Shown here piece after piece: positions 9,898-13,167 of a DNA stretch of 35,149 nucleotides (the stretch's first letter is position 1; each line of letters opens with the position of its first letter). The notes under the pieces were generated by a model. It had not been told where the DNA came from, did no database searches, and was given only the letters and a program-made list of their open reading frames with translations. The translations under genes were made by a program, and so were the position numbers. This DNA is from Methanomicrobiales archaeon. GTDB taxonomy: Archaea > Halobacteriota > Methanomicrobia > Methanomicrobiales > JACTUA01. The stretch lies in NCBI GenBank assembly GCA_028678665.1, contig JAJRDA010000004.1:1-35149 (forward strand), read 5' to 3'.

Positions 9898-10851
9898 TCA
9901 GTCCCCGATTTCCAGTTTTTCGAGAACCGTCCCGGTGATGGTCCGTATCTTCTCCACGGACTCCTGGAATGCGCGGACCTCATTGTCCTCGATCCGGATC
10001 GGCACCGGGAACGCGCCGTTCCGGTTGATTCTCGCGGGAACGCCGATGCAGACATCCCCGATCCCGTGCACCTCCTGACGGATGTAGCTGGAGACCGTGA
10101 GGATCCGGTTCTCGTCCCCGAGGACCGTGCGCACGAGAGTGGCAATGGCCTCGCCGGGCCCGTACGTGGTGGCCCCGCGTTTCCGGATGATCATCTCACC
10201 CGAGGTCTTCACCGTGTTGATCATCTCTTCCATGGGGATCTGGGTGAAGGCAGGCAGGTTGTTGATGGTGATGCCGCCCACCGTGGTCGCAGACCACAGC
10301 GGAACCATGGAATCCCCGTGCTCCCCGATGATCCGGGTGTGGACCTCGGAGACGTGGACCCGGAAGAAGTCGGCAAGGAGCGATTTCAGCCGCATGGAGT
10401 CCAGGTGGGTGCCCAGTCCGAAGACATGCTCCGGCCGCATGCCGGAGTACCGGAGGGCCACCGATGTCATCACGTCCACGGGGTTCGTCACCATGAAGAT
10501 GATGGCCTCGGGAGCGACACGGCCGATGGTCTCGGCTGCAGGTGCCACGATCCTGCCATTCTGGAGCGCAAGGTCCAGGCGCGCCTGCCCTGGCTGCCGT
10601 GCGATCCCCGCGGTGCAGACCACGATATCCGATCCCCGCACGTCGTCCATCTCCACCGACCAGCTGATCCGGGTATCCGTTCCCCGGGCGGCGAAGGAGT
10701 CCCCCAGGTCCCGGGCCAGGCCGTCCAGCTGATCCTCTGAGCCGGCCCTGCCGATGAGCAGGAGGTCGTCAACGTGGGGGTCATGGGAGATGGCATGGGC
10801 TGCAAACGATCCGATTCTGCCTGAAGCACCAATGATGGCTACGGTTGCCAT
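9898..10851 (-). CDS. mdh: Malate/lactate dehydrogenase family protein
   Basis: MATVAIIGASGRIGSFAAHAI, VTNPVDVMTSVALRYSG, IIGEHGDSMVPLWS. Start moved to 10851 because the longer ORF runs into the SRP RNA. Confidence 0.85.
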   Translation of the reverse strand: MATVAIIGASGRIGSFAAHAISHDPHVDDLLLIGRAGSEDQLDGLARDLGDSFAARGTDTRISWSVEMDDVRGSDIVVCTAGIARQPGQARLDLALQNGRIVAPAAETIGRVAPEAIIFMVTNPVDVMTSVALRYSGMRPEHVFGLGTHLDSMRLKSLLADFFRVHVSEVHTRIIGEHGDSMVPLWSATTVGGITINNLPAFTQIPMEEMINTVKTSGEMIIRKRGATTYGPGEAIATLVRTVLGDENRILTVSSYIRQEVHGIGDVCIGVPARINRNGAFPVPIRIEDNEVRAFQESVEKIRTITGTVLEKLEIGD

Positions 10852-10856
10852 GGAAT

Positions 10857-11180
10857 GATCACGTGGGGACACGTCCTCGGTCGGCACCACGTTCCGCCGG
10901 TATCGCGTGCGTCCCTCCTCCACCCCGCAACCCCGTGGGCGCCGTACGTCCACGGTAGGTCTGCTCCCTTCCGGGCCTGAACCGGTCCCCGCGGCACCAG
11001 GTCTCCACCCCCTCCGGGGATTCGATCCCTGTCCGCCGGCCTCACAGGACGAGGTTTCTCAGTCAGGATATACGCAAGTTCCGATGGCCGACTGTGTCTT
11101 CCTCAGACTTCGCCCCCCGCGTACCGGCGGTTTCGGGTAACAGGTGACGTCGAACCACCCGGGCTAGTCCCCGGTGATCC
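10857..11180 (-). ncRNA. ffs: Signal recognition particle RNA (archaeal 7S RNA)
   Basis: Minus strand has domain IV GGTTCAGGCCCGGAAGGGAGCAGACC, archaeal 5' domain GACTAGCCCGGGTGGTTCGACGTCACCTGTTACCCGAAACCGCC, and GATCAC/GTGATC plus GGGGA/TCCCC helix 1 end pairing. Ends approximate. Confidence 0.92.
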
Positions 11181-11194
11181 TTGGGGCGCTGAAA

Positions 11195-11205
11195 GGATAA
11201 AAACT
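11195..11205 (-). promoter_or_regulatory. TATA-like box for SRP RNA
   Basis: AGTTTTTATCC on minus strand, about 15-25 nt upstream of the inferred SRP RNA 5' end; overlaps the stop codon of the upstream CDS. Confidence 0.5.
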
Positions 11206-12238
11206 AGGGGATGAAGGCCTCCCCCCCCACCCTCTCCCGCCATTCCTGCAGGATCCGGCGGTTCGCCTCGGGATCCGACTTCCGGAAGAGGTCAATCACG
11301 GTAAGGAGGGGCTTCTCCTTCGGGATCACTGCACCCAGCCGCCGGTAGTCTCCCTGGTACACCTCGATCTTCTGCGCCCCCTCCGCCTCGGCCACCTTCA
11401 GGGGCTCCTCCATGACCGGGTGCTCCTGGAGCTCGCGGTACTCCTTCAGGAACCGGACCGGTTCGACGAGCAGGTGCTCCCGGTTCACCTCCACGTTATA
11501 GGCTGACCAGTAGGCAGCGGCGTACCAGGCATCGTTCAGGATCACGTGGCGCACGCCGCTGATGGCGCCCAGGATCCCCAGGGTCCCGACCCCGGAGGAA
11601 GCGTCCACGAAGACCCTGGGCATGGCGTGGCGCAGCTGGACGCTGACAGAGACGATCTTGGGATCATACCCCCGGGGGAACTCGATGTGGGTGAGGGACT
11701 GCTGCTTGTAGAGGACCACCGGGCTGTGCTGGGTGTAGAAGATGTCCGCCCGCACATCGCACCCGGCCAGGAGCTCGTAGTTCCGCGGGGGTGTGACCAG
11801 GTCCACGTCGACTGCCCCCGGGGTGAACTCCCCGCATTTCACCACGCCCCGAAGCTCCGGCACCTCCCGCATCAGCTGTTCTGCGGTCTTTTTATCGACA
11901 TGGCGGGAGAGGAGGAGGAGGGAGTTCCGGGGAAGATAGGGGGGCTGGTTCATGGCGAAGCCGGGGTGGACAAGAGGGATACCGGCCTCACGGAGGGGGC
12001 TGCCCCGGTTGAGAAGCCCCTCCTGCACCATGAGGGTGTAGATCTCGAGAAAGACGTTGTCGATGAAACGTTTCTCGCAGGTGCAGGCCTCCATGATCCC
12101 GAGATCGGCGGGAGGGGGCATCTGCTTGTCCAGCATCCGGGGCGTGCAGGCAGGGCAGGGGGAAAAGACGGTATCCAGGGTATCCAGGAGCTCGTGCGCG
12201 TACTGCACGCAGTCCTCACCGCAGACAGGGCACTTCAT
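11204..12238 (-). CDS. Conserved methanogen-type protein with N-terminal zinc-binding motif and Rossmann/methyltransferase-like core
   Basis: MKCPVCGEDC...CPACTPRML...ACTCEKRF N-terminus; VFVDASSGVGTLGILGAISGVRHVILNDAW. Start at 12238 avoids the tRNA. Confidence 0.6.
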   Translation of the reverse strand: MKCPVCGEDCVQYAHELLDTLDTVFSPCPACTPRMLDKQMPPPADLGIMEACTCEKRFIDNVFLEIYTLMVQEGLLNRGSPLREAGIPLVHPGFAMNQPPYLPRNSLLLLSRHVDKKTAEQLMREVPELRGVVKCGEFTPGAVDVDLVTPPRNYELLAGCDVRADIFYTQHSPVVLYKQQSLTHIEFPRGYDPKIVSVSVQLRHAMPRVFVDASSGVGTLGILGAISGVRHVILNDAWYAAAYWSAYNVEVNREHLLVEPVRFLKEYRELQEHPVMEEPLKVAEAEGAQKIEVYQGDYRRLGAVIPKEKPLLTVIDLFRKSDPEANRRILQEWRERVGGEAFIP

Positions 12239-12240
12239 CA

Positions 12241-12315
12241 TGGGCCCGATGCGATTTGAACGCATGACCGCCCGGTTATGAGCCGGGCGCTCTCACCGGA
12301 CTAAGCTACGGGCCC
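12241..12315 (-). tRNA. tRNA with CAU anticodon, probably tRNA-Ile2
   Basis: GGGCCCGTAGCTTAGTCCGGTGAGAGCGCCCGGCTCATAACCGGGCGGTCATGCGTTCAAATCGCATCGGGCCCA folds as a cloverleaf; elongator Met is the alternative. Confidence 0.9.
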
Positions 12316-12328
12316 GGAGAAAGCAGAG

Positions 12329-12401
12329 CGCCGCCAACAGGACTCGAACCTGTGACATGCTGGTTAACAGCCAGCCACTCTACCAACTGAGTTATGGCGG
12401 C
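12329..12401 (-). tRNA. tRNA-Asn (GTT)
   Basis: GCCGCCATAACTCAGTTGGTAGAGTGGCTGGCTGTTAACCAGCATGTCACAGGTTCGAGTCCTGTTGGCGGCG. Confidence 0.93.
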
Positions 12402-12553
12402 ATCAGGCGATATGCTTTATTACATCTTCGCGGTGGTTTATGAAACTTTGGAACAGGGAATCCTCGAGGGTTTGAGACCCCCGCAGGCCCCGTAAAATCT
12501 CCCGTTCCCCCACTGGAAAACGGGGCGTCCCCCCCTCTCCCCTGTTTTCACCG

Positions 12554-12847
12554 TCAGTGTTTTTTCAGGGCCTGGATCTGCCGGATCAGCTCGTCCAGTT
12601 CCCTGTCGACCTTTCCGAGGAGCATCTGGGCCTTGGGGGTCGCCATGGCACCGGAGGGGGAGGCACGGATATAGCCGAGATGCTCCAGGATCCGGAGGGA
12701 GTACCGGATCCGGTGGTAGGGGAGATCCAGGAGGAGGGAGAGCTTCATGATGCCGATGGGTTCATGCTCCACCACCGTTGTGAGCACCTGCAGGTGCCTC
12801 CCCAGCAGGTCCACCTCCCCCTTCAGCTTTGCGAGCATCCCTGACAC
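12554..12847 (-). CDS. Winged-helix DNA-binding protein
   Basis: VLTTVVEHEPIGIMKLSLLLDLPYHRIRYSLRILEHLGYIRASPSGAMATP, wHTH-like pattern. Confidence 0.7.
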   Translation of the reverse strand: MSGMLAKLKGEVDLLGRHLQVLTTVVEHEPIGIMKLSLLLDLPYHRIRYSLRILEHLGYIRASPSGAMATPKAQMLLGKVDRELDELIRQIQALKKH

Positions 12848-12870: not shown

Positions 12871-13167
12871 TCAATCTGTCCGTTCCCTGCCGGCCCCTGC
12901 CGCATCTCCGCCATCCCCGCGGGGTTCGACGATGCCCTTCCGGTGCTCCTCGTCCAGCCACTGTTTGGTCCGCCGGTACAGCCGCATGAAATACAGGAAA
13001 AGGCCGGCCGCGGCTGCGAGGGAGACTACGATCGCCACCCGTCCTGCGGGGGTGGGCATCCAAAAGTACAGGAGCACGGCAACGGCAATGAGGATCAGGA
13101 TGGCGTTGAGGAGAACGATGAGCTTGATGAACCGGAACCTGAGATCACCCTTGGCCGCCTCATCCAT
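12871..13167 (-). CDS. Small membrane protein, two predicted TM helices
   Basis: FIKLIVLLNAILILIAVAVLLYFW and VAIVVSLAAAAGLFLYFMRLY. Confidence 0.6.
   Translation of the reverse strand: MDEAAKGDLRFRFIKLIVLLNAILILIAVAVLLYFWMPTPAGRVAIVVSLAAAAGLFLYFMRLYRRTKQWLDEEHRKGIVEPRGDGGDAAGAGRERTD

Follow-up and report, generated by a model that had tools for sequence, protein, structure and literature searches.

The five co-directional elements that occupy positions 9898–12401 on the minus strand of the window (the whole stretch of DNA analysed, 35,149 nucleotides, which is the entire contig C4 of an incomplete 1.74 Mb Methanomicrobiales genome) probably constitute two adjoining or overlapping transcription units, the first comprising tRNA-Asn (GUU), a CAU tRNA and a 344-residue ORF, and the second the archaeal SRP RNA and mdh. 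The original prediction, which identified the same five elements, had envisaged a single transcript mixing tRNA, mRNA and SRP RNA; since the SRP RNA has its own conserved promoter element, the array is better read as two units. The simplest reading of the SRP RNA–mdh junction is that mdh would be transcribed from the SRP promoter.

The elements are closely packed (Table 1), with 13 nt between the two tRNAs, 2 nt between the second tRNA and the ORF, 29 nt between the ORF stop and the SRP RNA (as delimited by the Rfam model), and 11 nt between the SRP RNA and mdh. The first two gaps agree with those predicted, whereas the latter two had been put at about 23 and about 5 nt. Processing must part at least some of the array elements, as had been proposed. 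The SRP RNA assignment is well above the gathering score of 96.5 and spans model positions 1–317; that of mdh exceeds the curated cut-off of 283. A convergent aEF-1beta gene lies 15 nt from the end of mdh. Upstream of the tRNAs there are two small minus-strand ORFs (12554–12847 and 12871–13167), which are winged-helix-like (weak HVO_A0114 match) and membrane-protein-like, respectively; families f1 and f5 alone retain them together with PepQ-like and MAP2 genes.

Table 1. Elements of the array and its putative control regions, in the direction of transcription (window coordinates).
Feature	Coordinates	Strand	Basis
Putative promoter region of the tRNA unit, elements TTTCATAAACC and GTAATAAAGCATA	12403..12450	-	Sequence and upstream comparison
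tRNA-Asn (GUU), first gene of the array	12329..12401	-	ARAGORN; Rfam RF00005, 72.7 bits
CAU-anticodon tRNA, tRNA-Ile2 by elimination	12241..12315	-	ARAGORN, Rfam, tRNA comparison, TiaS gene
344-aa ORF, zinc-ribbon-like and methyltransferase-like, uncharacterised family	11204..12238	-	ATG at 12238; stop at 11206-11204
TATA-like box TTTTTATCC, putative SRP RNA promoter	11195..11203	-	Sequence; alignment of SRP loci
Archaeal SRP (7S) RNA	10863..11174	-	RF01857, 170.4 bits, full length
11-nt spacer GTGATCATTCC, Shine-Dalgarno-like GTGATC	10852..10862	-	Sequence; SRP-mdh gap comparison
mdh, malate dehydrogenase family, 317 aa	9898..10851	-	ATG at 10851; NCBIfam NF004863, 344.6 bits

ARAGORN labels the CAU tRNA of the array as Met, an assignment that we rejected in view of the separate initiator and elongator tRNA-Met genes and its likeness to tRNA-Ile(GAU). 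The genome holds three CAU tRNAs, namely an initiator tRNA-Met (L130), an intron-containing elongator tRNA-Met (L142) and the array gene, which is similar to the tRNA-Ile(GAU) at L131. Because of these separate tRNA-Met genes and this resemblance, and because TiaS is encoded in the genome (PF08489 match, 125.1 bits), the array gene is, by elimination, predicted to be tRNA-Ile2. ARAGORN also calls a second, intron-containing tRNA-Asn (L134, on G000 C94), for which a tRNA-Tyr bearing a canonical intron is the likelier identity; on that view the array gene is the sole tRNA-Asn seen in this incomplete genome, whose tRNA places were covered apart from some of class II. In one relative (G029, L078) about 28 nt, the anticodon arm among them, are missing from the tRNA-CAU copy upstream of the ORF (GGGCCCGTAGCTGCGGTCATGCG...), which points to gene decay or to a hairpin-related assembly artefact.

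Comparison with relatives, which had been suggested as a check on the prediction, gave a positive result. The ORF was detected in 57 of 61 genomes of the order and the SRP RNA in 60, and mdh directly follows the SRP RNA in all 60 members with an SRP match, including five genomes of genus g18. The ORF stop lies 12–16 nt before the SRP RNA in 47 genomes; of the eight exceptions, the three from the window's genus have 29 nt, and in the other five the distance is 76, 84, 93 or 95 nt or 1.9 kb. Within g18 the ORF is absent or elsewhere (it was not found in three of the five genomes) and the SRP RNA remains, with four of the five having tRNA-Asn, tRNA-CAU, SRP RNA and mdh without an intervening ORF. 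Most members of families f1, f5 and f6 have at least one of the two tRNAs upstream; neither was found within 900 nt upstream in f2, f3 or f4. Judged from this retention of SRP RNA–mdh across the order, and of ORF–SRP RNA–mdh outside g18, the array is not a chance arrangement, and the predicted tie between a translation RNA and a metabolic gene is borne out by the conserved pairing of SRP RNA, a translation/secretion RNA, with mdh. Outside the order, none of the mdh-like proteins (approximately 35% identity) adjoins an SRP RNA among the compared genomes in the matches listed; the nearest case among these, in family f19, has an mdh-like gene about 2.5 kb from the SRP RNA on the opposite strand. 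The sampled order genomes also carry a second, distant (approximately 30% identity) LDH/MDH-family gene elsewhere.

Gene order is weak as proof of function because unrelated neighbours are also kept beside mdh: the genes for aEF-1beta, an MfnE-like kinase and a phospholipase-D-like protein are found there in 42–43 of 44 loci. The region is generally syntenic, and the retained order by itself does not show coupling and proves little. The junctions provide stronger evidence than gene order. Of the 54 loci in which the distance from the SRP RNA to the mdh ATG was measured, 46 have 11–15 nt, with a Shine-Dalgarno-like GAT/GTGAT in the gap. Shine-Dalgarno-like matches 4 nt or longer are present in 42 of the 54 loci, against 10.3 expected from shuffles, and the near-constant spacing together with these elements spans six families. 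The mdh promoter zone gave a mean best TATA match of 3.96 out of 8, below that of shuffles (4.36), compared with 5.51 out of 8 for the SRP zone, and no position-consistent TATA element was found inside the SRP gene across relatives. A TATA-like GCGTATATCC in the window SRP RNA (around RNA position 100) was considered as an mdh promoter and set aside, its place not being generally conserved. Archaeal TATA boxes can be degenerate, so consensus alone limits how far an mdh promoter within the SRP RNA can be excluded. Conserved co-directional adjacency combined with the lack of a recognisable mdh promoter is the pattern that we take to mark an ncRNA–mRNA dicistron.

The strongest competing explanation, which we consider unlikely, is that these are independent genes packed by genome compaction, each with its own promoter (that of mdh being cryptic within the SRP RNA), and that their order reflects general synteny. 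It would account for the high background synteny of the block, and intragenic promoters are common in archaea, with 644 primary transcription start sites lying within genes in Thermococcus kodakarensis (PMC4247193). However, it is at odds both with the finding that no TATA-like element recurs at a fixed position ahead of mdh and with the nearly constant SRP RNA–mdh distance and its Shine-Dalgarno-like elements.

Taking the two-unit reading as the working model, we infer the following sequence of events. Transcription of the first unit would begin before tRNA-Asn, where the elements found in relatives (GTTTAATA and GTAATAAAGCATA) resemble those of the window, and the transcript would carry tRNA-Asn, tRNA-Ile2 and, in the window's genus, also the methyltransferase-like ORF; the tRNAs would presumably be freed by RNase P and tRNase Z. 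The second unit would begin at the SRP RNA 5′ end, with its TATA box placed within the tail of the ORF or immediately after it, and transcription would run through the SRP RNA into mdh. Initiation of mdh translation would use the Shine-Dalgarno-like element directly behind the SRP RNA 3′ end, a position which implies that this 3′ end would come from processing or partial termination. Some members of f2 have runs of T5–T6 at the 3′ end of the SRP RNA, suggesting partial termination there, which counts to some degree against read-through into mdh; in the other families the 3′ end would need processing. The SRP RNA flanks of the window at 11175–11180 (GGATCA+CC) and 10857–10862 (GTGATC) are complementary, and base pairing between them could mask the Shine-Dalgarno element of mdh when transcription starts upstream. 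Any regulatory coupling within the array would, like the transcript boundaries and the nucleases, be a prediction of this model.

The promoter element assigned to the SRP RNA has a TTTAT-like core located 24–29 nt before the SRP RNA 5′ end in aligned members of the order, and the core is also present where the ORF end is 76 nt to 1.9 kb away. The core reads TTTAA in G049 but TTTTT in G019, and for G059 the model sets the SRP RNA 5′ end differently. At about this position genus g18 carries TTTTATT or TTTTAAC, and outgroups have a similar element before the SRP RNA in apparently intergenic DNA. In the window, TTTTTATCC begins at the base following the TAG stop, adjoining the ORF without overlap; the predicted overlap with the stop codon thus does not hold here, but most relatives do have the box inside the last codons of the ORF.

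In those 47 genomes the box is embedded in a terminal TTT-ATY-CCN-stop, encoding F-I-P. The terminal Phe codon is TTT in 47 of 47 tightly linked ORFs, compared with 207 of 618 (33%) at the other Phe codons of the same ORFs, and with 11/41, 15/42 and 0/24 at control conserved Phe positions. Counting one ORF per genus, the chance product for TTT is 1.7e-8 over 17 genera, a value that assumes an independence of genera which is only partly true. Where the box has left the ORF (G000, G001 and G002 of the window's genus, together with G006 and G019) the terminal Phe codon is TTC, and in the window's genus the box has shifted to just past the stop; in G024 and G059 TTT is kept and is followed by GTT. 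The F-I-P tail is, on the sequences compared, specific to the order, since the outgroup proteins end in IVVI, IVVV, IIVL and the like. Because the unlinked g18 copies of the ORF retain this tail, some protein-level constraint on it is likely as well.

The conservation of this box immediately before the SRP RNA bears directly on the originally predicted single polycistron, in which a long transcript running from the tRNA promoter through mdh is cut by nucleases. The tight co-directional packing in the window's genus and the lack of an obvious terminator between the parts of the array are compatible with such a transcript, as is the ability of the window flanks (GATCAC/GTGATC) to lengthen the terminal stem of the SRP RNA, which requires an upstream start. 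This flank-extended processing stem folds in the window, but relatives have it in weaker form or not at all; the whole scores a z of only -1.3, and we did not retain the stem. Moreover, the ORF and the SRP RNA have been parted in three genomes (G049, G030 and G050), yet the SRP RNA remains next to mdh. Taken with the SRP RNA's own conserved promoter element, these observations make a single polycistron improbable.

The tRNA–ORF junction, which the original prediction included in the mixed transcript, is a local feature. A gap of 2–3 nt occurs only in the window's genus g1 (G000, G001 and G002) and in G004, whereas in most other relatives that have both tRNAs a stretch of about 50–360 nt separates the ORF from the last tRNA, and a promoter-like AAAA-ATATCTATG element often lies approximately 35 nt before the ORF; for this reason the fused state looks derived. 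With its own promoter apparently lost, the ORF of the fused lineage seems to rely on the tRNA transcript. One point against this is that tRNA-Ile2 has a T-loop, TTCAAATC, which fits the TATA consensus at 6 of 8 positions, although it is too near the ORF start for normal spacing. Cleavage by tRNase Z after the discriminator base of tRNA-Ile2 would give an mRNA starting UG-AUG, which would be in effect leaderless.

The ORF protein combines N-terminal zinc-ribbon-like motifs with conserved cysteines and a Rossmann-type methyltransferase-like domain. The window protein matched no Pfam or NCBIfam family, some relatives give only weak PrmA/UPF0020 matches, and a PDB profile search returned weak matches only (E of 0.07 and above). 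Its AF2 model (pLDDT 95.6) has the RNA methyltransferases RlmCD, TYW2, Trm5 and TrmA as the closest solved folds in Foldseek, with E values of 7e-6 to 2e-3 for the best matches, yet TM-scores of only 0.3–0.5. The family is also present outside the order, in parts of families f7, f8, f14, f22 and f30, where the ORF is distant from the SRP RNA. A functional regulon, with the adjacent tRNA or SRP RNA as the substrate of the protein and with a purposeful coupling of mdh to secretion capacity, would suit the fold and the long-standing linkage of ORF and SRP RNA, but is highly improbable given the low TM-scores, the g18 genomes that have the SRP RNA and in which no ORF was found, and the separation of the two genes outside the order. 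Overlap with the promoter would account for the linkage, and shared function need not follow.

We advance tentatively, as a possibility on which we would not insist, a fuller order-wide form of the two-unit reading: the SRP RNA would be the 5′ part of the mdh messenger, its TATA box would double as the F-I-P codons of the methyltransferase-like protein and, in one lineage, the tRNase Z cut of tRNA-Ile2 would make a leaderless ORF mRNA. If true, this would be a clade-wide archaeal case of one transcript shared by a metabolic mRNA and a stable RNA of secretion. It would also be a clean instance of promoter/protein double coding that leaves its mark at the codon level, and would offer a testable route from tRNA 3′ processing to leaderless mRNA. 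The formation of archaeal SRP RNA 3′ ends has, to our knowledge, been little studied, and would become testable at this locus. No earlier description of the SRP RNA–mdh pair was found in the open-licence literature searched.

Several known systems are reminiscent of parts of this arrangement. tRNA–mRNA operons exist, for example the Escherichia coli tufB operon, and in the first unit, too, a protein gene follows tRNA genes immediately and in the same direction; it differs in that the AUG comes just 2 nt after the tRNA 3′ end, so that the mRNA 5′ end would be defined by the maturation of the tRNA 3′ end. The second unit resembles E. coli ssrS–ygfA, in which 6S RNA is co-transcribed with a downstream metabolic gene (PMC2848244): in both, an abundant structured ncRNA lies 5′ of a metabolic enzyme gene and is conserved over a large clade, with the functional reason unclear. 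Here, however, the RNA is SRP RNA and not 6S, the archaeal promoter lies inside the preceding ORF, the enzyme is another, and the dicistron is a predicted one. Linkage of an archaeal SRP RNA gene to other stable-RNA genes has a precedent in Methanothermus fervidus, where, according to the account of Haas et al. 1990 given in PMC3035299, the 7S RNA and tRNA-Ser are linked to an rRNA operon; in contrast to that arrangement, as there described, the SRP RNA here lies between the ORF and mdh, downstream of tRNA-Asn and tRNA-Ile2. An apparent class II tRNA with a GCU anticodon (tRNA-Ser), situated about 10 nt 3′ of the SRP RNA in G061 (L164), is reminiscent of the Methanothermus linkage. Finally, intragenic promoters are widespread in archaea (PMC4247193), and promoters in archaeal coding sequences are also attributed there to Koide et al. 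2009. The SRP RNA promoter would belong with these in lying within the coding region of the upstream gene, and is unlike the known examples in being order-wide, in serving the SRP RNA, and in leaving a measurable codon signature at a protein C-terminus.
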